Shown in pieces: positions 2,948 through 58,040 of a DNA stretch of 64,000 nt. Position numbers and translations under genes: made by a program. The stretch comes from Sipunculus nudus (lineage: Eukaryota > Annelida > Sipuncula > Golfingiida > Sipunculidae): assembly GCA_026874595.1 (NCBI GenBank), contig CM049314.1:70200300-70264299 (forward strand), in the 5' to 3' direction. Below the pieces are notes generated by a model. That model searched no databases and was not told where the DNA came from. It saw only the letters and a list, made by a program, of their open reading frames with translations. The stretch's first letter is position 1; every line of letters begins with the position of its first letter.

Positions 2948-3031
2948 TTTGTGACCTTGACCTGTATTCACACTGACCTTGTGTGTGCCCTTTGAATCTT
3001 TGTGACCTTGACCTGATGATACTGACCTTGT
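2948..3031 (-). repeat. Duplicated ~50-bp unit carrying a second splice donor
   Basis: Two tandem copies on a ~49-51 bp period share TTTGTGACCTTGACCTG and ACTGACCTTGT on the plus strand. On the minus strand each contains ACAAGGTCAGT, which is the actual 5' splice site of the exon ending at 3027, plus AGGTCAAGGTCA half-site words. The second donor (GT at 2976-2977) is 49 nt downstream of the first. Confidence 0.75.
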
Positions 3032-3148
3032 ATATTCCTCCTCCAGGAGTCCTGGGTCTGGGGTATAGAATTTGACAAGGAAGCGCAATGTGAGGTCACG
3101 AGACTGAGCCAACTGTTTCACCACCGGTTTTTCTTTGTCCAACCAATA
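3027..3148 (-). CDS. FERM gene exon, F1/F2 boundary
   Basis: 122 bp: 40 codons plus 2 nt. The acceptor is GTTTTCAG and the donor ACAAG|GTCAGT. It encodes YWLDKEKPVVKQL, LRFLVKFYTPDPGLLEEEYT and the first two bases of an Arg codon. WLD-x-x-K-P-[IV]-x-K-Q and the VKF[YF]xxDPxxLxEExTR strand are hallmarks of the start of FERM lobe F2. The donor is a relatively weak GTCAGT. A near-copy of it lies 49 bp further into the intron (see the repeat at 2948-3031). Use of that copy would add 49 nt and shift the frame. Confidence 0.9.
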
Positions 3149-5635
3149 CTGAAAACAAACACAATTTTTTAAACAGCTATAAAAATGAATATTTCAGGGT
3201 TCCCACAAACCTATCAGAGTCAATGTCTTTTTTCAGGATCTTGACTGATAAAATTCTGGATATTCAAGGGATGTCATGTCTCAACATTAACTTGTGTAAG
3301 TACTTGCATTTACTTGCCTTTGATGAATTTTTACTTGCCCTACAAAATTCAATTCAGTGGTCACGTATTCCACATGAATGTGATGCTTGTTTGATTGCAT
3401 ATGTTAGAAAATAATAATCTTAAAATGTTTGTTTGTTAATAATATTCTTTTTCAGTATTTCTACAGTAACACTTACAGGTGATACAAAATAAAGTGGTAT
3501 TTTCAATATGTTTAATTTTCTCTGAGAAACCAGTTAATTGTTTTAAAACCCTGAATTTATTGTAGATTACTCCCTTGATGAAAACTTAAGTCATCTGATA
3601 CTACATTTTTATCATTTCTCTCATGAATAAACATATAGTGTTTGTAATGGCTTCCTTGTTCATAACTGATCATCGACACCATATCAGCAGCCAATGACCG
3701 ATTATTAGTCTCTTTTAAGAAGTATTGGGAATCAGTTACAATTTCATGATCAGTCATCAGTAAAATTTGGTTGACCTATATTTTTATGAAATTTCTTATC
3801 AAATATAAACCTGTACACCATCTCAATTGATATACAGGGTTAATATTGGGTAATCTATCTAATAACTCTATAGCCTACAAGTGTATAAATAGTAAATGTA
3901 GCTGTTAATCTGTTAAACTTTTTTCCACATAAATTTTATGAAAGTGAAGAATACCACATTATAAAGCCTTAGCTTTAGGAAAAACTCTGTAATCAATGAT
4001 GGCAATGCAAGATCAATTATCAGATCATCTGCACACGGCAACCGATCATCATTTATAAAAATACTGAAATCTCAGTTAACTGGCTAAGTGTGCCCTATTT
4101 CTCTTGTATTTTACTAGCAGGCCATCAGAGTGGAATTCAAGGTCTTTTCAAGGAAATTTCAATACATGCTAAGTCCTAGGTACCATTTTTAAACTCTGAA
4201 AAATCAGAAAAACAATTCAAGGATTTTCAAGGAAATTTTCAATATAAGCTATGTCCAAGCATTTCAAAGTCTTGAAAATCCATGAAAAAATTTATAATTT
4301 TCAAGGAATATTACGCATGTATTAAGCATGTTGAACAACATGTATTTGCAAACAAAAAAGTAGTGTTTAGCATTATATTTATTATCATACCACCAAGTAT
4401 CTGGTGACTGTATCTGTAAACACATATTGTGTTCACTTAACTACTTTTGATGTACAGGAAATTACTATGGATGTCAGAGACACAAAGTGATGTCTCTGTT
4501 TCAAAGACACCTCTTACGCTATACATGACAAGCTCATTTTTCCTGATTGTCAAGTTGATGCAGTCAATCATATCCTGTTCAGCCCAGAGATTCCAAGATA
4601 CCAAAGTACCTGGTATATTTTTTACCGTTACACTAAAGTCAATGTAGTATACTTAGCATGCTCTGTTAAATTAAGTCACAGACTCACAGTATGTACGTGA
4701 ATACACTTCCTCTTTCCACCCAAACCATCTGAATAAAATAATACATGGCCCATTGGCCATGATGCTCAGCTGAGCTTGTAAGCTGAGCTTGTAACCTTGA
4801 TGATTGAGGTAATGCTTGCACCCGAGTTTGCATCTAAACCTGCCAATCAGCATATAATGGAATAAGTGTGTAAAAACGCATCAAAGAATTGATGCATGGA
4901 ATTGCAATCCCTCAATTAAATTGTAATAGATTCATGTACTCCAAATAGATTCATTTCAACTATTATTTTTTTGTATGTTACATCCAGAGAATCTCTATGA
5001 GCTCTCAAATTTGAAGGGAGCAGTTCATGATGTTAAAGCTCTTTATCTTGTATCACATCCAACTCCAAATTTTAAATCCACAACATTCCTCTCTCGTAGG
5101 TCTGATTCTCGGCCCTAGGCCAGCCTTGGTGTTGAGACCTGATAAAACACGCTAAAGAAAGCAGCAGTTAATACAAAGGAGAATTGGAGATTTGACTGCA
5201 GGGAATAACCACTGTTTAGGGAGTGCAGGGATTGTTTGGTCATTTTAACATCAATATAATGTAGACCCATGGCACTTACAGACCCAGGATCATCCTTACT
5301 TACCATACTTGAGTGTCACAAGAGAAATGTTTGAATTAATTCTCGTTGGCGCCACCTGGTGCTAGTGGTTGCACCATCTCTGTTCTTCTCCTGGTATTTA
5401 TCCATGTAATTGACTGATTTGTGATTTGCGTTGATGTAAAAGCGTGAATTGCACTATGGGCACAAACAAGGGTGTTACAATTTTGTGAAAATGTTTTGAA
5501 GTTGTGACAAAAATTTGTTAAAATTTATATCCAACCTGTTGCTGATGAGATTTCTATTGAGTGAAAATTATTAAGGGGGGCTGCTCTGTCCAGTAAAATA
5601 GAGAATCAAGGTAACTGTTGGGTTGTCTGACCTAC
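3149..5635 (-). other. Long intron with a local duplication
   Basis: Intron of about 2.5 kb. It contains two ~45-bp copies of an ATTCAAGG...TTTTCAAGGAAATTT...GCTAxGTCC block at about 4134 and 4214 (period near 80). It also contains a CAGGGTTCCCAC word at 3197, reminiscent of hAT-type terminal repeats, for which I could not find a convincing partner end. Otherwise unremarkable. Confidence 0.5.
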
Positions 5636-14423: not shown

Positions 14424-14899
14424 GTAAGCTCCCCTCCCCCCTGTAAAATAAACAGAATACGACATTAAAAAGATTTATTCAGTTTTTAATGTTTCATTCT
14501 GTGAAAGAAAAATAAGAATATTCAAGATCACAACATTCAAGTAATATTTTGGTATTTTCAGTAAATTTATTCTAGCAGTGAGTTGGGTGGTGGGACTTCT
14601 TGTGGAATGTAGTTAGGATATTGGACATCAGATGGCGCTCCTGATTAACAATTAATGAGCAAGGTAATTTTATTCTGAGCAAGATGTCAGACTAATAAAG
14701 GGACACCCATTTTTTTATCTGTTTATCATATTAGTGTAGACAGTCTACTTGAATAATTGTCACTCCAACTTAGGTCGATGGATAATTTTAATGAGCAAAA
14801 AATCTGAACTAATTCATTATTTTCTAGTGGATAGTTTTTGCAAAAATGTTTTTGCCCAACATAAGGAAAAAAAACTTTCATGTTTTTTTTTTTTTTCAG
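14424..14899 (+). other. Probable 5' UTR intron of GT47 gene 1
   Basis: The 3' splice site is strong: about 15 T then CAG at 14897-14899, with the ATG of the GT47 reading frame starting at the next base. The best upstream donor is AAAAG|GTAAGC at 14423/14424. An alternative is GCAAG|GTAATT at 14663/14664. An intron ending exactly at the ATG is also seen in the second GT47 gene, which supports the model. Confidence 0.6.
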
Positions 14900-16447
14900 A
14901 TGGCACAAAGAAGTAAGAAATGGGTCCTTTTTATCATATGCGGCTTCATGTTTATTCAGGGATATATCTACCTCTCCCAGATGCCAAAATATCCAAAATC
15001 AGATGGAAAAGCTGAAGTTTCAGCCATGAAAGTAAACAATGACATCAGCACTATTAGAACAACAAAGGTCAAGGTTGATGAAATATCAACAAAGGTCAAG
15101 GTCAATGAAACATCAATAAAGTTCAAGGTCAATGAAATGACAACAAAAGTCAAGGGCAATGAAATATCAACAAAGGTCACAGACGATATCAAGTCAATAC
15201 CTGGCACAATTAATATCAAATCAGTCACAGACGAGATAGAAAATGGCCAGAGGGATAGAGTACCTAGCGAGGAAGTCAAAATATATATTTATGATCTTCC
15301 ATCAGAGTTTAATAGTGATATGCAAGAGTGTGTCAGGAGAAAATTTCCTTGTTTTGTTACACGAGACAATGGCTACGCTGAAAAGCAGTATACGGATGCA
15401 TACATGTCATGGCGGAACACGTGGCAGTTTGCCCTTGAGATGATACTACACATTAAACTATTATCAAGTCCATACCGTACACTTGAACCTGATAAAGCAG
15501 ACATTTTTTATCTTCCTTACTATAGTGCCCTGGCATGCTTCTGTTTCTGGACAGATCAAAGAAAATGCAGAGATAATGTTGACCATTTCTTTTCTGTTCT
15601 TGAAAACAGTACTTATTTCAAACATGGCCGCCCCCATGTGATGGCTGTCAGTAAAATTGAAAAAGAGCATGCTTCAAGCACTTGTCCAACTCTGTACCAT
15701 CGACTGGCAAGTAGAATACAGACAATTGGTATCGAGGAAGTGGCAGACCCTAATCTCCGAGTGGAGTACTACAATGTTAAATCTCACATGTTTATAGTTC
15801 CGTATCCATCATATGGTCATTTCTGGCCAAACATTACAAATGATGATGTCAAAATTTTAATCCAAGAAAATGAACGAACTGTGTTTATGTTGCTTGCTGC
15901 TTCTGAAAGGAGATCAAATATTTTTCGAGAGTTAATTCTCGACCAGTTTGAGGTCAAACTGTCAGCCGACGTAGACTATAATTTAACAGGATCATCTGTT
16001 GGTAAGGATTATCAACTCGAATCAATAATGTATGTAACGAAAGAATGTATGCCCCAAAAATATCTGAAAAACTGGATGCGACATTCTGTGTTTTGCTTGC
16101 AGCCACAAGGAGACTCTCCAACACGGAAATCCTTTTACGATTCCGTCATCAGTGGGTGTATCCCAGTTATTTTTTCTGGTAAATTTCACATACGTTACCC
16201 TTTCGAAGCCAAGCTGGAGTACAGCAAGTTTACAGTGACTATTCCAGAAAAAGATGTGTGGAGTGGCAAAAAAATAGTTGAAACACTTAAGTTGATTCCC
16301 TCAACACGCATTAAAGAAATGCAAACAAAACTGGCAGAAGTGGCTATAGCATTACAGTATAGCTACCCTCCACATAAACCAAGTAAAGATGCTGTTGAGT
16401 ACTTAGTTCAGGAAATGAAAGAATGGTATAAATTACTGCAAAAGTAA
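14900..16447 (+). CDS. Exostosin-family (GT47) glycosyltransferase 1, plant MUR3-like
   Basis: 515 residues in one exon. I chose the ATG at 14900 over an in-frame ATG 54 bp upstream because the latter lies before the poly-T/CAG acceptor. Layout: short basic cytosolic tail, type II signal anchor (residues ~8-26), Lys/Glu-rich stem with four 9-residue repeats (56-91), then the GT47 domain (~127-510). Landmarks: KIYIYDLPSEFN (127-138), KADIFYLPYY (199-208), GRPHVMAVSK (243-252) and the nucleotide-sugar loop FCLQPQGDSPTRKSFYD (398-414) with GCIPVIF (419-425). Potential N-glycosylation sites: N69, N236, N311, N361. The family transfers sugars from UDP-sugars in the Golgi. The loop resembles plant GT47 xyloglucan galactosyltransferases more than EXT1/2, and there is no C-terminal GT64 domain, so heparan-sulfate polymerase activity is unlikely. 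Donor and acceptor are unknown. Confidence 0.9.
   Translation: MAQRSKKWVLFIICGFMFIQGYIYLSQMPKYPKSDGKAEVSAMKVNNDISTIRTTKVKVDEISTKVKVNETSIKFKVNEMTTKVKGNEISTKVTDDIKSIPGTINIKSVTDEIENGQRDRVPSEEVKIYIYDLPSEFNSDMQECVRRKFPCFVTRDNGYAEKQYTDAYMSWRNTWQFALEMILHIKLLSSPYRTLEPDKADIFYLPYYSALACFCFWTDQRKCRDNVDHFFSVLENSTYFKHGRPHVMAVSKIEKEHASSTCPTLYHRLASRIQTIGIEEVADPNLRVEYYNVKSHMFIVPYPSYGHFWPNITNDDVKILIQENERTVFMLLAASERRSNIFRELILDQFEVKLSADVDYNLTGSSVGKDYQLESIMYVTKECMPQKYLKNWMRHSVFCLQPQGDSPTRKSFYDSVISGCIPVIFSGKFHIRYPFEAKLEYSKFTVTIPEKDVWSGKKIVETLKLIPSTRIKEMQTKLAEVAIALQYSYPPHKPSKDAVEYLVQEMKEWYKLLQK
15065..15175 (+). repeat. 27-bp coding repeat in the GT47-1 stem
   Basis: Four in-frame 27-bp units encode KVKVDEIST, KVKVNETSI, KFKVNEMTT and KVKGNEIST. 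The DNA core is AAGGTCAAGGTCAATGAAA. Units differ by a few substitutions, so the expansion is not very recent. The stem separates the membrane anchor from the catalytic domain and tolerates length change. The reverse complement TGACCTTGACCTTTG is also the core word of the satellite at 46.9-48.7 kb. Confidence 0.9.
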
Positions 16448-16542
16448 TATGAACTGTAATGCAAATATATTTACAGATAAAATGAAATGTTGTATAAAGC
16501 CTTGTGAAAATGCTATACATACAAAAAAACAGCAAAATGTAA

Positions 16543-16548
16543 AATAAA
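16543..16548 (+). promoter_or_regulatory. Polyadenylation signal of GT47 gene 1
   Basis: AATAAA 96 nt after the stop codon, followed by T-containing sequence. It is the first canonical signal downstream. Confidence 0.55.
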
Positions 16549-16559
16549 TATATACACTA

Positions 16560-19500
16560 TAAACATATAACCAAGAGACAAACTGCCCTTGAGTTCTGTG
16601 AAAATATATACACTTTTGCTTTCAAGAACTACTTGAAGCGGCCCAATTACATATGGCCTTTATAAACTACAGGTAATCCCTTGGAGCTTTTATAAAAATA
16701 GGCCAGAAAACATTGATATCACAGCACATAGGCTGCTTGTTTTTTCTGTATCAATGTGTTTATAATATGTGGGCGCCCCAAAATAATCAAAACAAATTAA
16801 GCATGGGCGTCTAGTGGAAAGTCAGATAAGCCAGTGCTTTGCAAATGGCATTTTGCAACAAGTTACCTCTCTACCTCTGCATGCAACCTATCACAATGTA
16901 TTTATATTTACAATCACAATGTATTAAAAAGCAACCACAGTGTATTTATATTAATTACAATGATATTTATTATGTAAAAAGGGAAAATTCACTCATGTGA
17001 CCATATTTCAATTATCTGAGGACACCAACTGATAAGATATATCTGTTATGCTGATCCATGCAAAGTATATGTCTATGATATTATTAGTGACATATGAAAA
17101 GTTTACATATGACAAACAGAGAACTGATCACAATATGCCATGTCAATGATGTGATGTCAAGAAAAAAACAACACATTCGTGAAAGGGCACAAAAATATTC
17201 CAAACTTGACTAGGAGTCTATGCTTACTGACAGAATGCTTTCGTGTAAGCAACATTAAAGTGCATTAACATGTATGGATATTAAATGTGATGTAAAATGT
17301 AATGAGAGAAAACCATTTTTTAAGTTGTATTTTTAAATGTATAATTTTATTGAAAATAATCTTTTCTCCTGGAGCATTAATTGTTACATCAATTCTTATT
17401 TTAACAAAGCCATCATAATAAAGAGCCTGACAGAGACAGTCTTCTGTAATTATATTTATCTTTAAAATAACCATATTTGGCATGTATTTAGTCAAAACAT
17501 GTTGCAAACAAAATTCAGTAGCTCAGATGACCTAAACACAAATTCCTCAAAATTATATACTGTATTAAATATTATCCATTGTAATTGCTTTGTTTCTTTC
17601 TAAGTGTAGCTAAATGAAATCAGCATTACATTCCACTGCTGTATCTCATAATAAGAAATGATAGTACCAAGGTACACCCAGCCTTATATTTAGTACAACT
17701 TTTGACCAGCAGATGGAACTAGCTGCTCTTCCCAGGCATGCATGAGAATTCAGTCTAAAGGAAAGCTAGTTATGGGATCACTAATTATATGGCAGTCTGC
17801 TTTAGATATAAAATATATGTGCAGCTTCACCAATCAAGAAATTATTAATACCAATGACTCATGTATTCACAATTGGCCCAACGTCCATGACTGCACTCTG
17901 AGACAGTGACCAAATTATATAGCAAGTGGCATATAACAGTTGGCATGTGAACAAGATACTCTATAATGAATAAGCAGCTAAAATAAATTTAGAATGAAAT
18001 ATTGACTGTATACATTAAAGATATGAATAATTTCAAATTAAAGGATATTTTCAAAATGTTACAAATTACTTATTGCTCCACTGTTCACACTGCAGATCAA
18101 TCATTCATTTATTAAATCTATTTCAGATTTTGTATGACAACATTTATGAAAATTAATTTACAATCTGTACCCTGGAGCACAGAGGTTGAAATTCTTAGTT
18201 GAGGCAGCAAAGAAATCTAATATTTGAAAATTTATTGACAGACACATATACTTATATATGTATCTTTGGTATGGCAGAATAAATGCCACTGTTTAAATCA
18301 TTCAATCATTATAAACCAGTACTTACCATTTACCATTCTGTTGATTCTAAATCATACAAATATGAACCAGCTTTCTGGACAGCAATAAGAAATTATCTAT
18401 TTATGTGCAACTGACAGATATGGTTTAAAAATAAATCTTCAAAACCAAAGCGGAAGGCAGTGCCATCATAAAAATGTCAAGAACTGTCTAATATACTCTT
18501 CAAAGCGATGTCATAAAACTGATCCAAAATTGAATTTTTCACCCTGATCTGCAAGCAATTTGTCTTATTCACTATTTGTACCATAGCCTCTGTGTGCTTT
18601 GTTTTGTTTCCCATTAAATTACATTCAAACCAGTATCATTTACGAAGTGTGGACAATTATGTCCAACTATTGGACATAAATCAGATATGCTTCTGCTAGT
18701 CGCTGTCATAAAATTGAATCTCGCTCATGTACAAAGGCATCATTTATGTCTATGACTGGCTGTTCAGTGCAAAAAAGCATATAGTGATTTGTGTGTGTAT
18801 TCTAAGTAATTTTTCATGGTCTGGCCTCTCAACATTGAATACTTTTGACACAAAAGTCCCCTTGCAATAACCAACAGTCATGCTGTGTTTATGGCGCCAC
18901 CTTTATAAGGTCGAATTATGTCCTATCTAGATGACACTTTTCCGCACTATTGACGATGAAAAATGTTTTAAAATTTAATTAATACACTGCTGACCCTCCT
19001 GTATCATGTGAATATATAAATAGATGGAAAAATTTGAATATTTCTTATTATTTCCTAGGTATTTTAAACTTCGAAGAAAAGTGCTCTGTCTATATAATAT
19101 GAAAATTTGCTTGAGTGATAATTACTTGAAATGAAAGTCAAAACCAAATATCTATGGCATATTGGGTCTACCAATAATATTGTGAATATGGATTAGTGCT
19201 CATCCCACATCTCAATTAAAACCCTTTTAAACTTATTTATTTTCACATTGATTATCCAAATCAAATAGCTATAATAACTAATACTAGGCACTCTCCAGGT
19301 TGGTTTTTGTGGCATTTGGTAGTCTTAAGAGTCTAGGCCCTTTTTCACAGATAAAGAATTGTTACTGTACTTTGATAAAAGTATGTTTCATTATTCCTCT
19401 ATTACAGTCATTAAAGTAAAGGGAGCAATAATATGCCTATTCTTTCACACTATCATTTCAGTTTTGCTTTATATAAAAGTTTCTCAGCAAAAACCATCCC

Positions 19501-20500
19501 GAGCACAGTTTCAGTACCTCCTATTCAGCTGTTTTACACCTTTTAGGTAAAAACCATCCATATGTGTCTGTTTACTAAAACAAGGCTGTGTGTCCGATTT
19601 TGCACATGTGCAACAGATTCAAAACAAGAGTGGGACAAACATGAATAAGCATGGTTGTGAAACAAAACAGAAAACAGAAAACACCGGTGATTGCTCGTGA
19701 TCCTACATTTTTAACACTCGTGCAAAAGAGTAAGCCGAAGCTTTTGGGGTAATATTTTGGCAGGTACCATTTTATTTCAGAGAGAAGACAATATTTTCCC
19801 TGTTAATTTAACATGCTTTGTTTGTGATTAGGTGCCTTTAAATGTTAATGCTTGACTCTGTCAGGCTCATCAACTGATCCAGATCTTAAAGACTGTTTGA
19901 TATGCCATATCATTGTTGTTCTGTAAGAAACTTGCTCTGGTAAAATAGTCCTTATGAAGTTCACTTAACATGGACAAAGAACATAATGGTTAATAAACTG
20001 TCTGGATCTTTTCACCAACATGTTTTGCAGATGACAGCCTTATAATCAAAGTGATGCACTTATGGTCTTGAAAAGAAGATCTCTGATTTTTCCAGCCCAA
20101 CACCATAACATTCTAACTTCTAAATACAATAAATGGTCTCCTTGCAGAAAAAAATATCTCCTGTCTTTGTCTTTAAGCTCATTGGTAAAATACCAGTCAG
20201 AAATAAAAGCCTCAAGAATGAAAAGGTGTTGTTTTGGTAATTACAGGTGTCTCCAGTCTCATGTATGTCTGTGCGCCATGCATTCAGGAGTGTTCTCTAA
20301 TTGTACAGGTTATGTACACAGAACATGTGTGGTTACTTTATGTTGTAAAATGACAAATAATCATACAAATTTTTTTTATCTAGCTGCTACAAAATGTCAT
20401 AGATTATCTACGACTATCATCACAGATATACTACTTTTTTAACACACAACGTTCAATCTGATAAAACCTAAAAGAACTCCAAAATTTGCAATAATACTTT
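16560..20500. other. Intergenic stretch between the two GT47 genes
   Basis: AT-rich. I see a short local repeat of CAATGTATTTATATT-type words at 16890-16970 and an operator-like inverted repeat at 18657-18679 (listed separately). A 126-codon open frame at 20062-20442 has no recognisable domain and I do not call it a gene. Confidence 0.4.
18657..18679. repeat. 10-bp perfect inverted repeat
   Basis: TTATGTCCAA, spacer CTA, TTGGACATAA. It overlaps a second dyad, GGACA-ATTA-TGTCC (18651-18664), so three GGACA/TGTCC half-sites lie within about 30 bp. It could be a factor-binding site or a remnant of a small inverted element. Confidence 0.5.
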
Positions 20501-21239
20501 GTTTCTACATTCTGATAATCAGTGTCAATGGGCTTCGATCCAGTGCCCTATGAAAAAAATTTGTGCTGAGCTGTTCTACATCAAGAAATAAAGGTTGTGA
20601 CAAATTGTTTTGACGGAAACGGCTGTACTGATGCGATTCATACTGAACATAAAAAGACCTTTGAAGCGGTGCCAGCAACAAAGGTGGCAGGTCTTAATGC
20701 TTGAGCTACCTAACAATCAACAAGTTTCGGCATCACTGCTTGGAGACTATAAAACCACCTGCAGACAAAATAGCCAGCCAGAGTACAGGATATCGGTGGC
20801 TATCTCAACTCACCCTGTGTTTCCTCTACAGACTCATACCAGGTGTGCTGCTACACTGATAAAGAAGTCAGGAATCTAGACTTTTCTTACATCAGGACAG
20901 AAACGTTGACGATTCCTGGTGGTATCATATTTAAAAGTGGGAAGTGGACTTCTTGGCGCAAAGATGAAAACCACCCTGCTTAACTGATGAAGAACGTTTA
21001 AAACCGTTACATCTGGTTTGTCATTAATGAATGACTTTGGTTCTTTTTGAGTGAACTCATTTCCTAGGACTTTAAACTCAAAAATTTTATGTCAAAAATA
21101 TTCCATGGAAGTTTGATATCCAACTGATCTTTGTGTTGCTAATACTGAAGTAAACATATGATAAATCTGAATATTCACAACAGTGATTGTCGGCTGAATT
21201 GGAGAATTTTTTCTACAAGTAGAAAATTGGAAGACAAAG

Positions 21240-21783
21240 GTAAGTGCAATTTAGTTGTGTAATGATATATGGTATTTAAAATATGATTAAGTTGATGCTG
21301 CACAGTTTACTAAAGCAAGTAGGAATAAGATAAAGCCCAATAAGACATTCTGAAACTATGAACCCAAGGCCTCACACCAATATCTATATCTTATAAATGA
21401 GAATGTTACTGGTAAATATTCCATCTTGGTTTTAATATTCATGTTCATATCAGGATCATTTAATCATGTTTACCATTCATTATATCTTTGTATGAGCAAT
21501 CTTACCACTGCAAACACCATTTGCTAGTAGTGTTTCCATTAAAATTTGCATTCTGATGAACAGTAAATTTTATTGTATGTATGTATTGCAGCATGTGTTT
21601 AAATGAATACAGAACTTTTTTATTTAATATTTAACAAATTCTTCATGATCTACAAATGAAGATGTCATTATAAAGTATGTATATTGAACATAATTACTGA
21701 TTACAATTAAACAGATCTGAGGCACAGATGAACAAGGCAGCATATGTATTGATAATAAACAAATCATTCTCTTTTTATTACAG
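21240..21783 (+). other. 5' UTR intron of GT47 gene 2
   Basis: Consensus donor ACAAAG|GTAAGT at 21239/21240 and acceptor TTTTTATTACAG ending at 21783, directly before the ATG. Length 544 bp. The 5' UTR exon would end at 21239. Its start is not visible, but it should lie somewhere in about 20.5-21.1 kb. Confidence 0.75.
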
Positions 21784-23694
21784 ATGAAGTCCTTAATTCC
21801 TGCCATTACACATTCCTTGTTGCTCGTGATTACCCTGTCTGGCGTCACAAACCAATGTCCTTCTATGGATGCAAACAGACTTGAAGAAACTGACACATCT
21901 TTATTTAGTACATCCTCAGTGTCAGACCAAGGCTTACGTAATGATAAAGGAAGTGACTTCAAAGACTCAATTCTACTTCCAGCGGAAAAAGAGAATCTGG
22001 CTTCAAAGCCGGCCAATGATCCAAGATCAAAGAATTGGAATGCCAGGCTTCGACTGAGATCATCCGTTGATCTTTCACAGTGTGGGACTGGCCAGAAAAA
22101 TTTGGCCAGTAATACAAATATCCCTCTGGAAATGAATTTTCCTCCTTGCATTTCCTGCAAAAATATTGTAGGTTCTGCCAAAGTCTGTTACACTGAGAGA
22201 AGCAAAGTTTTATATCATGCAATGGAAGGGCCACACCAAGACCAACATGTCACTGACTGCAGATTTACTTATTTGGATAATCAATCAATGCTTACGGATT
22301 ATTCTCTAAAACCTCTTCATAAAGAAATAGATGAAAAAGCTGTTCCAACTTTAGATGGTATATTTACAGCGACAAACCAAGAAGAAATGTCTGGATTATC
22401 TTCTAGATACCAAAGGTTTCTTTTCTTGAAAAATGGAAAAGACCTTTCAGAGGAGGCAGTGCCGGGATTAATTCTAACGGACCAAATGGATTCAGTTTTC
22501 TTACTAGATCAAAAGGAACTTTTAAGTCAGGGTACACCGTTCAAAATATATGTGTATGACCTTCCTGCACAATTCAATGAAGATTTATCAAGATGCATGT
22601 TGGGAAATTTTGATGAAAACTGCAGCATCAAGGTCACTCACCAAGGTTATGGTGACGAGTTATACAGTGATCGGTACCTGACTGTTCGAGACACATGGCA
22701 CTTTTCACTGGAACATATTATTCACCACAACTTATTACAAAGCCCATATCGAACGACAAATATGACTGAAGCAGACATTTTTTATATTCCATTTTACGCT
22801 GCAGCAGCATGCTTCTGTGCGGGATTAGATGGTGATGAATATATCATCAAGGATTTGTTCAAGTATCTATGGCAACAGATACCCTTCAGACAAGGCCGAC
22901 CTCATGTTAGTACAATTGGCAAAATCCAACGGGAACACTGTTTCCCACAGTGCTCCATCTTCCTTCATCCAGATGCAGAACGAATACTATTTCTTGGCAT
23001 TGAAGAGGAATATTTTCGAAAGATTGTGTTCAATGTTAATGCATCTCTGCTTGTAGTACCTTATCCAGCATATGCTCACCTTAAGAGACACATGGAAGAT
23101 CGTCAACTGGAAACACCAACAATGGCTGACCGTCCTGTGCTGATGTTTATTGCAGCATCCGACTGCTATGCCAATCCACTGCGGGTAACAGTCCTTGATC
23201 AATTTGAGAACTTCACTATGAAAAACTTTACCACATATGTGAGAAATGCTAGGAAAGTACCTAAGGCAGTATGGTACTACACATCAGAGTGTGACAATAA
23301 TAAGTATACATTTGACTGGATGCAAAAATCAAAGTTCTGCCTCCAGCCACCAGGTGACTCTCCAACAAGAAAGTCTTTTTTCGACGCTCTACTTAGTGGA
23401 TGTATACCAGTGTTGTTCGAGCATGAGAACCCTGTAAAATATCCCTTTGACAATCAATTAGACTATTCCAAATTTACCCTCACTTTACCAAAGAAATATC
23501 TTGAAACATCATCGCTAAAGCTTGCGGATGTTTTAGCACAAGTGGACTTGGACTCTCTTAATCGTAAACAAGCAGCTTTGTTGCAAGTAGCACCATATTT
23601 GCAATACAGCTACCCAATAACAAGAACAGCACACAAAGATGCAATTGGGGTAATACTGAAAAATGTTGCTAAATATTTCAGTATAGACCCCTGA
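21784..23694 (+). CDS. Exostosin-family (GT47) glycosyltransferase 2, plant MUR3-like
   Basis: 636 residues in one exon; the ATG abuts the splice acceptor as in the paralogue. A short hydrophobic N-terminus (residues ~8-21, HSLLLVITLSG core) is a signal peptide or weak signal anchor. A ~230-residue region with few landmarks and scattered Cys (25, 100, 122, 125, 135, 159) follows, with no similarity I recognise. The GT47 domain spans ~253-630: KIYVYDLPAQFN (254-265), EADIFYIPFY (329-338), GRPHVSTIGK (371-380), FCLQPPGDSPTRKSFFD (518-534), GCIPVLF (539-545). It is collinear with gene 1 throughout this domain (for example W-H/Q-F-[SA]-LE and SPYRT), so the two are tandem paralogues. The divergent N-termini suggest different localisation or acceptors. 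It lacks the GT64 domain of true EXT proteins. Enzymatic specificity cannot be read from the sequence. Confidence 0.92.
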   Translation: MKSLIPAITHSLLLVITLSGVTNQCPSMDANRLEETDTSLFSTSSVSDQGLRNDKGSDFKDSILLPAEKENLASKPANDPRSKNWNARLRLRSSVDLSQCGTGQKNLASNTNIPLEMNFPPCISCKNIVGSAKVCYTERSKVLYHAMEGPHQDQHVTDCRFTYLDNQSMLTDYSLKPLHKEIDEKAVPTLDGIFTATNQEEMSGLSSRYQRFLFLKNGKDLSEEAVPGLILTDQMDSVFLLDQKELLSQGTPFKIYVYDLPAQFNEDLSRCMLGNFDENCSIKVTHQGYGDELYSDRYLTVRDTWHFSLEHIIHHNLLQSPYRTTNMTEADIFYIPFYAAAACFCAGLDGDEYIIKDLFKYLWQQIPFRQGRPHVSTIGKIQREHCFPQCSIFLHPDAERILFLGIEEEYFRKIVFNVNASLLVVPYPAYAHLKRHMEDRQLETPTMADRPVLMFIAASDCYANPLRVTVLDQFENFTMKNFTTYVRNARKVPKAVWYYTSECDNNKYTFDWMQKSKFCLQPPGDSPTRKSFFDALLSGCIPVLFEHENPVKYPFDNQLDYSKFTLTLPKKYLETSSLKLADVLAQVDLDSLNRKQAALLQVAPYLQYSYPITRTAHKDAIGVILKNVAKYFSIDP

Positions 23695-46897: not shown

Positions 46898-48720
46898 CAA
46901 TCTTGTTGAAGATGTTGGTCCTGTGACCTTGATCTTTTTAAAGATGTGTCCTGTGACCTTGACCTTTGACCTCATGACCCCAAAATCAATTTGGGTCTTG
47001 CTTTTCCAATGGGACATATGCAAGTCAAGTTTGAAATCTATACCTCAATAAAGCAGGAATTATCATCCAGAAACTAATTTTTGGACAGATGGCTCCTGTG
47101 ACCTTCACCTTTGACCTTGTGACCTCAAAATTGATAGAGTTCTTCCTCTCTTGGCAGGAGAACTATATGTGCAAGATGAAAGATCTGAGATGAATTGTTT
47201 GGCTGAAAATGCATCCACAATCTTTTTAAAGAGGTTTCCTGTGACCTTGACCTTTGACCTCATGACCCCAAAATCAATTCGGGTCTTGCTTTTCCAATGG
47301 GTCAAATACAAGTCAAGTTTGAAATCCATACATCGATAAAAGAAGGAATTATCATCCAGAAACTAATTTTTGGACAGATGGCTCCTGTGACCTTCACCTT
47401 TGACCTTGTGACCTCAAAATTAATAGGGTTCTTCCTCTCTTGGCAGGTGAACTATATGTGCAAGATGAAAGATCTGAGATGAAATGTTTGGCTGAAAATG
47501 CACCCACATCTTTTTAAAGAGGTTTCCTGTGACCTTGACCTTTGACCTCATGACCCCAAAATCAATTCGGGTCTTGCTTTTCCAATGGGTCAAATACAAG
47601 TCAAGTTTGAAATCCATACATCGATAAAAGAAGGAATTATCATCCAGAAACTAATTTTTGGACAGATGGCTCCTGTGACCTTCACCTTTGACCTTGTGAC
47701 CTCAAAATTGATAGAGTTCTTCCTCCCTTGGCAGGAGAACTATATGTGCAAGATGAAAGATCTGAGATGAATTGTTTGGCTGAAAATGCATCCACAATCT
47801 TTTTAAAGAGGTTTCCTGTGACCTTGACCTTTGACCTCATGACCCCAAAATCAATTCGGGTCTTGCTTTTCCAATGGGTCAAATACAAGTCAAGTTTGAA
47901 ATCCATACATCGATAAAAGAAGGAATTATCATCCAGAAACTAATTTTTGGACAGATGGCTCCTGTGACCTTCACCTTTGACCTTGTGACCTCAAAATTAA
48001 TAGGGTTCTTCCTCTCTTGGCAGGTGAACTATATGTGCAAGATGAAAGATCTGAGATGAAATGTTTGGCTGAAAATGCACCCACATCTTTTTAAAGATGT
48101 GTCCTATAACCTTGACCTTTGACCTAATGACCCCAAAATCAATTTAGGTCTTGCTTTTCCAATGGGACATAAACAAGTCAAGTTTGAAATCCATACATCA
48201 ATAAAAGCAGGAATTATCATCCAGAAACTAATTTTTGGACAGATGGCTCCTGTGACCTTCACCTTTGACCTTGTGACATCAAAATTGATAGGGGTCTTCC
48301 ACTCTTGGCAGGTAAACTATATGTGCAAGATGAAAAATCTGAGATGAATTGTTTGGCTGAAAATGCATCCACAATCTTTTTAAAGAGGTTTCCTGTGACC
48401 TTGACCTTTGACCTCATGACCCCAAAATCAATTCGGGTCTTGCTTTTCCAATGGGTCAAATACAAGTCAAGTTTGAAATCCATACATCGATAAAAGAAGG
48501 AATTATCATCCAGAAACTAATTTTTGGACAGATAGCTCCCGTGGCCTTGACCTTTGACCTTGTGACCCCAAAATTAATATGGATCATCCACTATCGGCAA
48601 GTGAGCTATATATTCAAGATGGAAGACCTAGGATGAAAGTTTGGCTTAAAATGCATCCAATGTATCTTTTAAAATGCCAGTCCATTGACCTTGACCTTTG
48701 ACCTCATGACCCTAGAACCT
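46898..48720 (+). repeat. 288-bp tandem array with 577-bp dimer structure, rich in AGGTCA half-sites
   Basis: About six units of 288-289 bp. Variants alternate: the start of one internal frame recurs at 47151, 47728 and 48305, exactly 577 bp apart, so the array is built of dimers. Each unit has two half-site clusters, TGACCTTGACCTTTGACCT and (one mismatch) TGACCTTCACCTTTGACCT. The word TGACCTTTGACCT is the reverse complement of a DR1 nuclear-receptor element. The cluster with TTGACCTTTGACCT recurs eight times from 46954 to ~48690. Open frames of 61-74 codons on both strands are copies of the unit and are not taken as genes. Confidence 0.92.
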
Positions 48721-49399: not shown

Positions 49400-52254
49400 C
49401 ATGCTCTGAATTGTTATAATAAAAGTAGAAAGTCAATTTTTTTTGTGAGAGCAAATGTGTGGCAAATTACAGATATATTGAAAGTACTATAAAATTAATC
49501 TTGAATACTTCCCTGAACACTTAGATGCTTAGATATCTGATAAGAACATAATTACCTCCATCAAGGAAGTTATGTCTTCACCCATGTCTGCGTGTTAGTC
49601 TGTTTTATATGTTTGTTGGTTCATTACATGGAGTATGCAAAACCCACTAAAATGATTTCCCTGAAACTCAGTGGATGGATGCGACACAGGTCAGTGAATT
49701 AAGTCCAAATTAAAGTGCCCAATCCACTAGATTTTACTTTTGCAGAGGCATCCACTCATATGGATGTCTTTTCACTCAAATATTTGTTGTTAAAACTTGA
49801 TTCAAATAATAGAAACATAAAGCCTTATGAATCCTTTAATTACAAAGACAATGGTGAGAACAGAACTGAAATAAACATCACTTGTAGAAACTATTCTTGA
49901 TTAATGAGACGTGCTTGTATTGCAAAATTTTATTAGATGATAGATAGGTTGGGATAACTTACTGACAGGAATACTTATGAAGGGCTGGCCTACTTTCCAT
50001 GGATATCTGAATGGACTTTTTCCATGCAACCAAGCAATCAATGATAGCCAGGGAAAGGGTCTAAAGGGTTCACTGGAGTACACTATAAACAGCTGCCGCA
50101 ATGGCCTGTGTAACATACCCGCCCTGCGTTCTGTTTCTTTCATGGTTTCAGGTCTGTATGACATTTGTATGATTGACATCCAGGGGGGTTGCATCTCGTT
50201 ATCAATTTCACATACAATTACAAAGCATGCTATCTCATGTTAACCAGCCTCTCAACCATGATATAAACATCCGTTGTAGTGGAATCCAGGGTGCAGAGAG
50301 CAAAATTTGGTTTTTTTTTGCTGACTGAACATATGACGATGAGAAATTACGTACTATGCCAAAATAAAGCCATCATGGCTGAAACTGAGACAAGTCATAT
50401 GCTTTTCCTTGGGATGGGGCCAAATTGAAAAGCAGCCAAGTCAACAATCCACATACAGCTGTGGATAAAAATATACTTATTAGGTCTATAAATTCTGGAT
50501 GTATTATTCATTTTGCGACACCAGATGGTGCTAGTGTGCCACAAACAATCTGAGAATTGTTATTATATTCCCTGTGGGGTTGCGTTCTGGTGCTCTTGAG
50601 TGATCTTCAGCAGGTAAAATCATGAATTAAGCCGAGGTGAAAATCCCCACCAGCTGGGCTTGCGTTCAATAAATGTGGACCAAGCGCGAGTTAATACAAC
50701 CCTCTAGGGAATGGAGAACTGCAATAAGCCACAGTAGGATGAGTTGAGGAGTTTGCTTAGGTAAATATCAACTATGATGCTTGGAGCACATGCTGCCAGG
50801 GGTCAGCTCCTGAGCCTGAGCCGATCAAATAGATGAAGACAGATGTCCCTGAGCCAACCTGTATTTACCTCCAATACACAAACCTAAATGGGAATGTAAA
50901 CAACGCTACCCACAGGTGCCCTGAAGTGATGTCTGTATTGCCCAAAAACATGTATATTACTGTGGACTGGTGGAAATGTACCACTTAAGTATATGTTTAT
51001 ATGAAGTTCATTGATATCAGCAAGGAACAAATATATATACAGGCTAAAATTGTTCATAAGTAAACATGGAATAAGTACATTACTGTGGATATTTGGGTTG
51101 AAAGTAACCAGAAAAGGATATTTGTTAAGTTCATGTTGCCTAGAGATAAAAACATAACAGCAGATTCATCTCAATGTCCATATAATATTCACTTTTCATA
51201 ATATTTCATGTGTGATGTTAACTTTATTGTGGGCCATATGTGTAATAGTTATGTACAAAAATTAAGTATATCAGAATTATAGATTATGGATTTCAGATTT
51301 CACAAAAAATCAAGTTTGAGTATCTAACTTTCAAAATTAACCAAGACTTAAGGAATACATTCAAGACAGCCTGAAAGACCTCATTTTCCCTAAGGTGCAA
51401 TCTGTAAGCCAAGCCTGGTCAATATTTTACATTCTTAAAGCTTGTCACCATTTATATCTTAAGGTCTCAGTCTTCCTGAGAACCCATCTTGCAGCCTCCT
51501 CCACTTAGAATTTAATAATTTTCCAGCATGTCAGTGTTTTGCCTCCTAGCAGCACTGCCTTAGCTGATCTACAGCACTGCCGTAGTTCATAATGTTTGAA
51601 GGACAGCCCAGGGCAGTCTGTATTATGATCACACTCACAAAGGTCAATAACAGTGCTTCGCTTCTTCCACACTGCCAATGCACTCTTCCAGCCCCGTTCC
51701 AGCAATACAGTGACTGGCAGGGCCTCTCCCATTACTTCACCAGCAAAATGGACAGCCAGACTTCAGTCAATGAATTTTATGCAACAAAACAGATTTTCTC
51801 ACAATGGACAGCTTTTTCAAATTCCTGTTTGACTCCCAGACAACACTGCTACAACTTTGGGAGTTCTTTTTATCTAATGTTTTACTGGTATGTTTATCTA
51901 CGAGTTCATGCTTTTTACAAGTGCTTCCTTTATCTACATCTGCTGGTCGCTGTGGAAATTGCCAGCTGGTCTATGGACCCCTGGTAACTACATAAGATGC
52001 TGCTGGTCCACATGGTTACTGCTTCAGCAGGTGCCACTGAGTACCATGGCGACTGACATTTTTTATCGCAAACAATGATAAACATGACAGAATATCAAAT
52101 TTTCATTCAATATGTGAACCTCCTTGTATTTAATAGTTTATATATATGCTGTACATATTCCATCCATTCATTGCAAAGTTTATTTCTTATGACCTGAGAT
52201 CAGGTTATAGTCAGTGTTATAGTCACTACCAGGTTATCTCAGATGAAGACAGAA
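49400..52254. other. Non-coding stretch, no gene seen
   Basis: A repeat-poor block at 50560-50960 and another at 51470-52070 are less AT-rich. The second has three overlapping open frames on the plus strand (up to 131 codons, 51592-51987) with no known motif. I see no splice-consistent model. Confidence 0.35.
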
Positions 52255-52866
52255 ACTGAGACCATGGGATAACTGAAACCATAGGATAACTAAGACCATG
52301 GGATAACTGAGACCTTGGGATAACTGAGACCATAGGGTAACTGAGACCATGGGATAACTGAGACCATGGGATAACTGAGACCATGGGATAACTGAGACCA
52401 TGGGATAACTGAGTCCATGATATAACTAAGTCCATGGGATAACTGAGGCCATGGGTTAACTGAGACCATGGGTTAAATGAGACCTTGGGATAACTGAGAC
52501 CTTGGGATAACCGAGACCATGGGATAACGGAGACCATGAGATAACTTAAGACCATGGGATAACGGAGACCTTGGGATAACTGAGACCTTGGGATAACTGA
52601 GACCATGGGATAACTGAGACCTTGGGATAACTGAGACCATGGGATAACTGAGACCATTGGATAATGGAGACCATGGGATAACTGAGACCATGGATTAACA
52701 AGGACCATGGGATAACGGAGACCATGGGATAACAGAGACCATGGGATAACGGAGACCATGGGATAACAGAGAGCATGGGATAACTGAGACCATAGGATAA
52801 CTAAAACCATGGGATAACTGGGACCATGAGATAACTGAGACCATGGGATAACTGAGACCATGGGAT
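52255..52866. repeat. 17-bp minisatellite, about 36 copies
   Basis: Unit GAGACCATGGGATAACT with scattered variants (CCTTGG, GATAACGG, CATAGG). Because 17 is not a multiple of 3 and the unit lacks stops on the minus strand, all three minus frames stay open, giving frames of 72, 76 and 216 codons with a 17-residue period. I regard these as artefacts of the repeat. Confidence 0.95.
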
Positions 52867-54423: not shown

Positions 54424-57400
54424 TCTGTTTCCAAACAGTTTAGAAAATGTTTTGAGCAATCACACTGCAAACGCAAACTGTTTCCAAACAGTTTAGAAAA
54501 TGTTTTGAGCATTCACACTGCAAACGCAAACTGTTTCCAAACAGTTTAGTAGAAAATGTTTTGAGCATTCACACTGCAAACGCAATTTGTTTCAAAACAG
54601 TTTAGAAAATGTTTTGAGCAATCACACTGCAAATGCAAACTGTTTCCAAACAGTTTAGAAAATGTTTTGAGCATTCACACTGCAAACGCAAACTGTTTTT
54701 TAAACAGTTTAGAAAATGTTTTGAGCATTCACACTGCAAACGCAAACTGTTTCCAAACAGTTTTGATAATGTTTTGAGCATTCACACTGCAAACGCAAAC
54801 TGTTTCCAAACAGTTTAGAAAATGTTTTGAGCATTCACACTGCAAACGCAAACTGTTTCCAAACAGTTTTGATAATGTTTTGAGCATTCACACTGCAAAC
54901 GCAAACTGTTTCCAAACAGTTTAGAAAATGTTTTGAGCATTCACACTGCAAACGCAAACTGTTTCCAAACAGTTTAGAAAATGTTTTGAGCATTCACACT
55001 GCAAACGCAAACTGTTTCTAAACAGTTTAGTAGAAAATGTTTTGAGCATTCACACTGCAAACGCAAACTGTTTCCAAACAGTTTAGTAGAAAATGTTTTG
55101 AGCATTCACACTGCAAACGCAAACTGTTTCCAAACAGTTTAGAAAATGTTTTGAGCAATCACACTGCAAATGCAAACTGTTTCCAAACAGTTTTGAAAAT
55201 ATTTTGAGCATTCACACTGCAAACGCAAACTGTTTCCAAACAGTTTAGAAAATGTTTTGAGCATTCACACTGCAAACGCAAACTGTTTCCAAACAGTTTA
55301 GAAAATGTTTTGAGCATTCACACTGCAAACGCAAACTGTTTCCAAACAGTTTTGATAATGTTTTGAGCATTCACACTGCAAACGCAAACTGTTTCCAAAC
55401 AGTTTAGAAAATGTTTTGAGCATTCACACTGCAAATGCAAACTGTTTCCAAACAGTTTAGAAAATGTTTTTGAGCATTCACACTGCAAACGCAAACTGTT
55501 TCCAAACAGTTTAGAAAATGTTTTGAGCATTCACACTGCAAACGCAATTTGTTTCCAAACAGTTTAGAAAATGTTTTGAGCATTCACACTGCAAATGCAA
55601 ACTTTTTCCAAACAGTTTAGAAAATGTTTTGAGCATTCACACTGCAAACTGTTTCCAAACAGTTTAGAAAATGTTTTGAGCATTCACACTGCAAACGCAA
55701 ACTGTTTCTAAACAGTTTTGAAAATGTTTTGAGCATTCACACTGCAAACGCAAACTGTTTCCAAACAGTTTAGTAGAAAATGTTTTGAGCATTCACACTG
55801 CAAACACAAACTGTTTCCAAACAGTTTAGAAAATGTTTTGAGCAATCACACTGCAAATGCAAACTGTTTCCAAACAGTTTTGAAAATGTTTTGAGCATTC
55901 ACACTGCAAACGCTAACTGTTTCCAAACAGTTTAGAAAATGTTTTGAGCATTCACACTGCAAACGCAAACTGTTTCCAAACAGTTTAGAAAATGTTTTAA
56001 GCAATCACACTGCAAATGCAAACTGTTTCCAAACAGTTTAGAAAATGTTTTGAGCATTCACACTTCAAACTGTTTCCAAACAGTTTAGAAAATGTTTTGA
56101 GCATTCACACTGCAAACGCAAACTGTTTCCAAACAGTTTAGAAAATGTTTTGAGCATTCACACTGCAAACGCAAACTGTTTCCAAACAGTTTAGAAAATG
56201 TTTTGAGCATTCACACTGCAAACGCAAACTGTTTCCAAACAGTTTTGATAATGTTTTGAGCATTCACACTGCAAACGCAAACTGTTTCCAAACAGTTTAG
56301 AAAATGTTTTGAGCATTCACACTGCAAATGCAAACTGTTTCCAAACAGTTTAGAAAATGTTTTGAGCATTCACACTGCAAACGCAATTTGTTTCCAAACA
56401 GTTTAGAAAATGTTTTGAGCATTCACACTGCAAATGCAAACTGTTTCCAAACAGTTTAGAAAATGTTTTGAGCAATCACACTGCAAATGCAAACTGTTTC
56501 CAAACAGTTTTGAAAATGTTTTGAGCATTCACACTGCAAACGCTAACTGTTTCCAAACAGTTTAGAAAATGTTTTGAGCATTCACACTGCAAACGCAAAC
56601 TGTTTCCAAACAGTTTAGAAAATGTTTTAAGCAATCACACTGCAAATGCAAACTGTTTCCAAACAGTTTAGAAAATGTTTTGAGCATTCACACTTCAAAC
56701 TGTTTCCAAACAGTTTAGAAAATGTTTTGAGCATTCACACTGCAAACGCAAACTGTTTCCAAACAGTTTAGAAAATGTTTTGAGCATTCACACTGCAAAC
56801 GCAAACTGTTTCCAAACAGTTTTGATGTTTTGAGCATTCACACTGCAAACGCAAACTGTTTCCAAACAGTTTAGAAAATGTTTTGAGCATTCACACTGCA
56901 AATGCAAACTGTTTCCAAACAGTTTAGAAAATGTTTTGAGCATTCACACTGCAAACGCAATTTGTTTCCAAACAGTTTAGAAAATGTTTTGAGCATTCAC
57001 ACTGCAAATGCAAACTGTTTCCAAACAGTTTAGAAAATGTTTTGAGCATTCACACTGCAAACTGTTTCCAAACAGTTTAGAAATGTTTTGAGCATTCACA
57101 CTGCAAACGCAAACTGTTTCTAAACAGTTTTGAAAATGTTTTGAGCATTCACACTGCAAACACAAACTGTTTCCAAACAGTTTAGAAAATGATTTGAGCA
57201 ATCACACTGCAAACGCAAACTGTTTCCAAACAGTTTTGAAAATGTTTTGAGCATTCACACTGCAAACGCAAACTGTTTCCAAACAGTTTAGTAGAAAATG
57301 TTTTGAGCATTCACACTGCAAAAAGCAAACTGTTTCCAAACAGTTTAGAAAATGTTTTGAGCAATCACACTGCAAATGCAAATTGTTTCAAAACAGTTTA

Positions 57401-57822
57401 GAAAATGTTTTGAGCATTCACACTGCAAACTGTTTCCAAACAGTTTAGAAAATGTTTTGAGCATTCACACTGCAAACTGTTTCCAAACAGTTTAGAAAAT
57501 GTTTTGAGCATTCACACTGCAAACGCAAACTGTTTCCAAACAGTTTAGAAAATGTTTTGAGCATTCACACGGCAAACGCAAACTGTTTCCAAAGAGTTTA
57601 GAAAATGTTTTGAGCATTCACACTGTAAACGCAAACTGTTCCCAAACAGTTTAGAAAATGTTTTGAGCATTCACACTGCAAACGCAAACTGTTTTCAAAC
57701 AGTTTAGAAAATGTTTTGAGCTTTCACACTGCAAACACAAACTGTTTCCAAACAGTTTTGAAAATGTTTTGAGCATTCACACTGCAAACGCAAACTGTTT
57801 CCAAACTGTTTAAAAAATGTTT
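54424..57822. repeat. 53-bp palindromic satellite, about 64 units
   Basis: Consensus pieces in order: AAACTGTTTCCAAACAGTTT, AGAAAATGTTTTGAG, CATTCACACTGCAAACGC. The first piece is a perfect hairpin (9-bp arms, CC loop). Length variants include a GTA insertion (TTTAGTAGAAAATG) and ~44-bp units lacking ACGCAAACT. Variant markers recur as blocks: CGCTAACTG at 55911 and 56541, AATGTTTTAAGC at 55991 and 56621, CACTTCAAAC at 56061 and 56691, all 630 bp apart, showing block duplication. Some frames stay open (60-74 codons) but reflect the repeat. Confidence 0.97.
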
Positions 57823-58040
57823 TGAGCATTCACACGGCAATCCAAAGCGTTTTCAAACTGTTTTGGCCAAAGCTTTTTGGATCAAGCTCAGGAGGTGGTT
57901 TGAAAGCGTTTGGAATGGGAATAATTTTATTTGCTTTGCTTAACTGTCGTTTAAATGCTCCGAAGCATTTTTCAAAGCGTATTGGACACAAGGTTGCCTT
58001 ATGCTGATGTGAATGCAATGTTTTGGCCAAACAGCTCTGC
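57823..58040 (+). mobile_element. MITE-like element, family A copy 2, abutting the satellite
   Basis: Starts GAGCATTCACACGGCAATCC and continues with AAACTGTTTTGGCC and TCAGGAGGTGGTTTGAAA. These align with the minus strand of 801-1092 (GAGCATTCACATAGCAATCC ... TTAGGAGGTGGTTTCAAA). It ends near GATGTGAATGCAATG. Its first bases are the same as the satellite unit's GAGCATTCACAC-GCAA, so array and element join without a break. Non-coding. Confidence 0.7.

Follow-up and report, generated by a model that had tools for sequence, protein, structure and literature searches.

Candidate GT47-A-like glycosyltransferases apart from the exostosins in Sipunculus nudus

The 64,000-nucleotide stretch of Sipunculus nudus DNA analysed here (the window) carries two intact genes, each of which encodes a protein with one GT47 domain, and a genome search found a third intact copy (gene 3) on the same chromosome, 26 Mb from the window. 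With a probability of about 0.6, we consider the three copies to be probably active glycosyltransferases of the Golgi, from a GT47-A-like lineage outside the exostosins.

Gene copies, domain architecture and origin

The tandem pair of animal GT47 genes reported in a preliminary description of this DNA was borne out: both open reading frames are present (Table 1), and the Pfam GT47 profile (PF03016, cut-off 33.4 bits) matches gene 1 with 146.8 bits (E 1.1e-42) and gene 2 with 131.3 bits (E 5.8e-38), as it does the third copy with 150.3 bits (E 9.6e-44). The count of two copies given there has to be raised to at least three, all copy counts in the genome being lower bounds. The domain limits proposed there (residues 127–510 and 253–630) lie close to those of Pfam at their starts and extend beyond them at their ends, which Pfam places so that the domains span about 124–462 in gene 1 and 251–573 in gene 2, counted from the ATGs. 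NCBIfam and PHROGs profiles gave no match for any of the three copies. Two AlphaFold runs with three sequences each returned mean pLDDT values of 35.5 and 34.9, which are unusable as fold evidence for GT-B.

Table 1. Features of the two window genes (positions within the window)
Feature	Gene	Coordinates	Strand	Remark
Entire coding sequence	1	14900..16447	+	515 aa, one open coding exon
Entire coding sequence	2	21784..23694	+	636 aa, one open coding exon
Polypyrimidine tract + CAG, acceptor-like, abutting ATG	1	14880..14899	+	15/17 pyrimidines
Pyrimidine-rich stretch + ACAG, acceptor-like, abutting ATG	2	21764..21783	+	14/17 pyrimidines
Predicted signal anchor, hydrophobic	1	14921..14977	+	hydropathy only; 19-residue mean 1.79 at residue 8
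Predicted signal anchor or signal peptide, hydrophobic	2	21793..21849	+	hydropathy only; mean 1.78 at residue 4
27-bp tandem repeat, in frame	1	15060..15179	+	4.4 copies; nine-residue repeat within stem
GT47 domain (PF03016)	1	15269..16285	+	Pfam profile match
GT47 domain (PF03016)	2	22534..23502	+	Pfam profile match
Arg343	1	15926..15928	+	by-eye alignment with UDP-binding Arg280 of human EXT1; invariant in three copies
Arg467	2	23182..23184	+	at place of EXT1 Arg280
Donor loop FCLQPQGDSPTRKSFYDSVISGCIPV	1	16091..16168	+	alignment of copies; Asp414 (16139-16141) at place of EXT1 Glu349
Donor loop FCLQPPGDSPTRKSFFDALLSGCIPV	2	23335..23412	+	alignment of copies; Asp534 (23383-23385) at place of EXT1 Glu349

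The genome also holds EXT1, EXT2 and EXTL3 with GT64 exons, and is thus an animal's. The haemocyanin profile PF14830, used as a mollusc marker because the preliminary description had spoken of a mollusc-like animal, gave no match in a search in which no control matched either. The GT64 domain, which the preliminary description had named as an addition in EXT1/EXT2, is missing from the window genes, the stop codon of both coming after GT47. A GT64 profile search of the genome, which weak matches may escape, gave 12 matches; all of them lie at the EXT1, EXT2 and EXTL3 loci, and the chromosome of the window has none.

Gene 1 is 58% identical to the distant third copy and 37% identical to its neighbour, gene 2, which rules out a recent tandem duplication and makes the pair in the window an old one. 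Over 396 aligned codons, genes 1 and 3 differ at codon positions 1, 2 and 3 in 132, 85 and 237 cases, respectively, a distribution that fits purifying selection on the protein. The corresponding dN is 0.33, and dS has no finite value by NG86, i.e., it is saturated.

Gene 1 may have an intron in its 5′ untranslated region, given the acceptor-like site that abuts the ATG. At a cut-off of 11/17 pyrimidines, 14 of the 2997 ATGs in the window are preceded by such a site, genes 1 and 2 being counted among the 14; the site before the ATG of the third copy has 10/17 pyrimidines and falls under this cut-off. Since an acceptor-like site stands before all three ATGs, an origin of the copies as retrocopies from spliced mRNA seems unlikely. 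A recent transfer from a plant also looks unlikely, because dS between the copies is not finite and because their GC3 (0.35–0.44) is similar to that of the EXT1 and EXTL3 exons (0.36 and 0.44); an old transfer from a plant may have taken place. Scans of prokaryote and viral collections, with two alignments and two short patterns per scan, gave no confirmed relative; a loop pattern had 0 matches in viral contigs, and a search with gene 1 gave no match in plasmids at E 0.1 and two phage records at E 0.07.

Donor loop and nucleotide-sugar contacts

Both proteins contain the loop FCLQPxGDSPTRKSFxD...GCIPV that had been described for them, as FCLQPQGDSPTRKSFYDSVISGCIPVIF in gene 1 and FCLQPPGDSPTRKSFFDALLSGCIPVLF in gene 2. 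Its core, GDSPTRKS, is present in all three copies and fits the motif GDSxTR(R/K)S, which we take to be the donor loop of plant GT47-A enzymes of the MUR3 type. PDB chains of EXT1 and EXT2, whose complexes are solved in entries 7SCH and 7ZAY, align at that place with a different loop, in agreement with the earlier statement that the exostosin loop differs.

The preliminary description had named a loss of nucleotide-sugar contacts as evidence against active enzymes, and among the charged residues compared, such a loss is seen for some and not for others. Two reports list Arg280 and Glu349 of EXT1 as UDP contacts (PMC9675754; PMC9178029), Glu349 being the acidic residue on helix C-alpha-4 that contacts the ribose (PMC9178029). 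In our alignment, counterparts of both are kept in all three copies, the acidic residue being Asp414 in gene 1, Asp534 in gene 2 and Asp375 in the third copy. In the excerpt of PMC9675754, Arg346 of EXT1 binds UDP, is required for GlcA transfer and is missing from the domain of EXT2, and Asp162 and Asp164 are likewise required in EXT1. Arg346 is replaced by Ser in all three copies (Ser411 in gene 1; EXT1 numbering taken from a provisional human sequence), and an acidic counterpart of Asp162/Asp164, which probably correspond to LDRD in the EXT1 of this animal, is not evident in the alignment of the copies. These two differences would suit proteins whose GT47 domain is inactive or has a regulatory part, as has been proposed for EXTL3 and EXT2; this explanation, compatible with either lineage, we regard as distinctly unlikely. 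However, the acidic ribose contact and the Arg280 counterpart are kept, and the EXTL3-type insertion ahead of the helix is absent from the copies in the alignment. Moreover, the active plant enzyme MUR3 presumably also has Ser at the Arg346 position, preceded by two basic residues.

Position among plant and animal GT47 sequences

MUR3-type enzymes are plant xyloglucan galactosyltransferases of GT47-A. The plant rows in our comparisons were provisional MUR3 and IRX10 sequences, which were not drawn from database records and cover two plant clades only, B, C, E and F being left out; with Pfam GT47 scores of 305 and 260 bits, they qualify as plausible GT47 domains and no more. The best BLASTP stretches of genes 1, 2 and 3 against the provisional MUR3 domain scored 101, 96 and 108 bits over approximately 400 residues at 25–27% identity, and those against provisional IRX10 scored 68, 56 and 51 bits, the last over 85 residues only. 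The animal's own EXT1, EXT2 and EXTL3 gave 17–31 bits over short stretches (EXT1 and EXT2 being partial, which lowers the attainable score), and MUR3 gave 31.6 bits against IRX10, both being the provisional sequences. Profiles of GT34 and GT37 had no match in the genome search, in which no control matched either.

With provisional MUR3 the copies share the single GT47 domain, the loop FCLQPxGDSxTR(R/K)S...GCIPVxF, a longer stretch behind the loop and a KDA/QKDA helix region near the end, whereas they have Pro in place of Tyr in GDSPTRKS, an ADIFYxPxY motif closer to that of IRX10, and an animal host. With the IRX10-type xylan xylosyltransferases (provisional sequence) they share the single GT47 domain and the stretch SSPxRTxxPDxADxFYxPxY, whereas the IRX10 loop is WAPWSPRLVEA. 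With EXT1, EXT2 and EXTL3 (GT47-G) they share the GT47 domain and the counterparts of the EXT1 ribose contact and Arg280; they differ in the missing GT64, the loop, the Ser at Arg346 and the absence of the CxxxxCFDxxxC start found in the animal's own EXT1, EXTL3 and EXT2.

Placement of the copies inside the EXT/EXTL clade, which would speak against the plant-like assignment, was not recovered: in all three trees, a branch has EXT1, EXT2 and EXTL3 on one side and the copies on the other (99/95, 96/93 and 96/97). In the two trees with provisional plant rows, the copies and MUR3 share a branch relative to IRX10 and the EXTs (99/97 and 100/100), and constraining the copies with the EXTs was rejected (AU p 0.025 and 0.006), as was constraining them with IRX10 (AU p 0.004). 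The claim of a plant MUR3 type is partly supported: MUR3 is nearest among the sequences compared, and loop and architecture are not EXT-like, but the MUR3 sequence is provisional and the comparison covered two plant clades.

That the copies are fast-evolving exostosin paralogues, which lost GT64 and changed their loop, we consider very improbable. On database sequences alone, the constraint of the copies with the EXTs was not rejected (AU p 0.16), and a profile of the three copies matches human EXT2 (1.9e-5) and EXT1 (0.015) in the PDB, as any GT47 might. However, the tree of these database sequences sets the EXTs against bacteria, the copies and the C16 gene (96/97), a third or less of its columns being filled in the rows of EXT2 and of the C16 gene. 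Single-sequence PDB searches with a limit of E 1 found no exostosin with gene 1 and, with gene 2, one at E 0.97, and the CxxxxCFDxxxC start is lacking.

A stronger competitor, although still an unlikely one, is an old eukaryotic GT47 lineage of its own, approximately equally distant from GT47-A and other plant clades. Some animals would have retained it, whereas vertebrates, flies and nematodes would have lost it, and the likeness to MUR3 would reflect shared ancestry or a convergent loop. The N-terminal LLSSPYRTxxPDxADIFYxPxY is closer to provisional IRX10 than to provisional MUR3 in the alignment, and this reading gains from the comparison of two plant clades and from the long branches in both plant-row trees. 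MUR3 itself (provisional) is a long branch, and the second plant-row tree (100/100) nests it among the three copies (59/90), which points to a long-branch problem. Against an independent lineage, MUR3 outscores IRX10 for all three copies, and the IRX10 constraint is rejected, both with provisional plant rows.

Proposed function and significance

On the GT47-A-like reading, which we prefer, the copies are predicted to be type II Golgi membrane proteins with a short tail, a hydrophobic anchor, a variable stem and one catalytic GT47 domain, of a lineage apart from the exostosins and nearest to plant GT47-A (MUR3 type) among the sequences compared. By analogy, the C-terminal Rossmann lobe would bind a UDP-sugar, the acidic residue contacting the ribose and the arginine and the T-R-K-S helix start contacting the diphosphate, and one sugar would be added, with inversion, onto a Golgi glycan, probably on a side chain rather than in the backbone. 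A role in mucus, cuticle or shell is speculation.

Tentatively, some animals may have kept or acquired plant GT47-A-type enzymes that add a side-chain sugar which vertebrates lack to a polysaccharide or glycoprotein, in an undescribed pathway. Animal GT47 usually means glycosaminoglycan synthesis, according to part of one report (PMC11468063), and in the excerpt of a GT47 phylogeny covering human, fly, nematode, sponge and a choanoflagellate, the opisthokonts fall in one exostosin clade (PMC9178029). The presence in one animal of three open, constrained copies outside the exostosins points to a wider GT47 repertoire among animals. Such genes, closer in look to a plant cell-wall enzyme family than to the heparan-sulfate enzymes usual in animals, hint at an unmapped animal glycan, and named proteins are now at hand for asking which sugar joins which glycan.

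GT47 and GT64 genes of the genome

The genome measures 1.43 Gb; the window is part of its 79.8 Mb contig C9 and carries two genes whose GT47 identity, as given in the preliminary description, was borne out by a Pfam search of both proteins. The exostosin GT47 domain PF03016 covers genes 1 and 2 over nearly the full profile (E 1.1e-42 and 5.8e-38) and is alone above the cut-off. A modestly hydrophobic N-terminal segment (19-residue means of 1.79 for gene 1 and 1.78 for gene 2) fits what a predicted Golgi type II or secreted protein would show.

A whole-genome PF03016 search gave at least nine matches: three single-exon genes of the window kind, i.e., genes 1 and 2 and a third copy (gene 3), five exon matches accounted for by the EXTL3, EXT1 and EXT2 loci, and one further match on contig C16. 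Protein searches of the genome with gene 1 and with gene 2 each returned just the same three copies, and all 12 whole-genome GT64 matches fell at the EXT1, EXT2 and EXTL3 loci. GT34 and GT37 are partners in xyloglucan synthesis; their profiles found no match in the genome, and since no control matched either, this absence speaks only weakly against xyloglucan synthesis in the literal sense.

Locations of GT47 genes and repeats (window positions unless a contig is named)
Feature	Location	Strand	Details
Gene 1	14900-16447	+	515 aa from ATG; long open frame
Gene 2	21784-23694	+	636 aa from ATG; long open frame
Gene 3 (L001)	about C9:44.13 Mb		489 aa
EXTL3	C5:24.98 Mb		match to human EXTL3, E 1.5e-123
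EXT1	C5:78.59-78.75 Mb		identified from loop sequence
EXT2	C6:68.28 Mb		identified from loop sequence
C16 GT47 gene (G000)	C16:28802124-28803685 (L004:1625-1855 and 3019-3186)	-	at least two exons, joint set by eye
Repeat in gene 1 stem	15060-15179		27-bp tandem repeat
Satellite	46932-48712		288 bp
Minisatellite	52254-52866		17 bp x 36 copies
Minisatellite	54425-57863		53 bp x 65 copies

Structure and history of the three copies

In genes 1 and 2, which are spaced 5.3 kb apart, the ATG directly follows a pyrimidine-rich ...AG, suggesting that each is probably a single coding exon after a predicted 5'UTR intron. They scored 42.2 and 40.4 in a codon-usage scan that was partly trained on these same two genes and is blind to short exons; the runner-up (10.3) is antisense to gene 2. 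Rfam gave no match in the window at the gathering score.

Gene 1 is closer to gene 3 (58% identity) than to gene 2 (37%), so the tandem neighbours are not the closest pair; gene 2 and gene 3 share 40%. Over 396 codons, genes 1 and 3 differ at 132, 85 and 237 first, second and third positions, with dN of 0.33 and no finite dS, which points to protein-level constraint on the copies and an old split between these two.

The word AAGGTCAAGGTCAA is common to the gene 1 stem repeat and the 288-bp satellite, and occurs eight times in the window at up to one mismatch (two in gene 1, six in the satellite; 0.01 expected). This word may be the genomic source from which the gene 1 stem expanded; searched against the genome by a method that skips very common words, the stem DNA matched itself only. 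A 224-aa minus-strand frame in the 17-bp minisatellite looks like repeat rather than gene.

Relation to exostosins and plant GT47

Human EXT1 has the loop GRRLGSFRFLE, whereas the three copies have GDSPTRKSFxD. In the PDB, gene 1 by itself matched no exostosin at E up to 1, gene 2 by itself reached exostosin-2 at E 0.97, and a three-copy profile reached EXT2 at 1.9e-5 and EXT1 at 0.015. A tree of fetched sequences comprised the three copies, EXT1, EXT2, EXTL3, the C16 gene and two plasmid-borne bacterial GT47 sequences; EXT2 fills 33% and the C16 gene 25% of its columns, and the tree software issued a warning that two long branches, the C16 gene and Gloeothece, come together. In this tree the EXTs stand alone on one side of a branch (96/97) and the copies group at 99/99; a forced union of copies and EXTs is not rejected (AU p 0.16).

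The description had further noted a plant MUR3-type loop in both proteins. The GT47 domain rows used for MUR3 and for the xylan xylosyltransferase type IRX10 have Pfam GT47 scores of 305 and 260 bits, which make them plausible without thereby verifying them. In BLASTP, genes 1, 2 and 3 scored 101, 96 and 108 bits against MUR3 along some 400 residues, 68, 56 and 51 bits against IRX10 (the last over 85 residues only), and 17-31 bits against the animal's own EXTs; the two plant rows matched each other at 31.6 bits. Trees including these rows put the copies and MUR3 on a common branch (99/97 and 100/100) and rejected a forced grouping of copies and EXTs (p 0.025 and 0.006). Three points complicate a MUR3 reading: the MUR3 branch is long, it nests within the trio in the 100/100 tree (59/90), and one N-terminal stretch of the copies looks closer to IRX10 than to MUR3. 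The plant side of the comparison consisted of the MUR3 and IRX10 rows, with no member of clades B, C, E or F, so the copies are classed as non-exostosin, GT47-A-like GT47 and are not filed as GT47-A members.

The C16 gene may represent a second type of GT47 outside the exostosins in this animal. Its loop is IRX10-like (AWSPRLMDALWFGCVPVILSD), its contig has no GT64 match, and it scores 58.5 bits against the IRX10 row and 37-44 bits against the animal's own EXTs; constraining it with the EXTs was not rejected (AU p 0.385).

Predicted donor site and significance

EXT1 residue numbers were counted along the human sequence, and their correspondence with the copies was aligned by eye. Human EXT1 binds UDP through Arg280, Arg346 and Glu349 together with Tyr324 and Tyr319, and the R280A, R346A and D162N/D164N mutants lost most of their GlcA transfer (PMC9675754); the acidic residue at Glu349 is conserved across GT47 (PMC9178029; PMC12235428). 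The loss of nucleotide-sugar contacts was envisaged earlier as a sign of inactivity; among the charged contacts, in this by-eye alignment, Arg280 corresponds to Arg343/Arg467/Arg300 and Glu349 to Asp414/Asp534/Asp375 in genes 1/2/3, both invariant in all three, and Arg346 to Ser, with Arg-Lys just before. The probable equivalent of Asp162/Asp164 in the EXT1 of this animal is its LDRD, for which the multiple alignment has no acidic counterpart in the copies. We take the copies as predicted active inverting transferases that would use a UDP-sugar donor and be unlike the EXT1 GlcA transferases.

The literature matches listed, judged by titles and abstract openings, held no account of non-exostosin GT47 in animals. 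Automatic annotation labels some invertebrate proteins as plant xyloglucan galactosyltransferases; if this is true, these genes are already in databases, perhaps undiscussed. For the snail Achatina fulica a published table gives GT47 (2) and GT64 (3) (PMC10295696), so some molluscs may lack copies of this kind. The open, non-exostosin GT47 genes of this animal are a real set whose interest lies in its placement on the tree of life, the architecture being ordinary.
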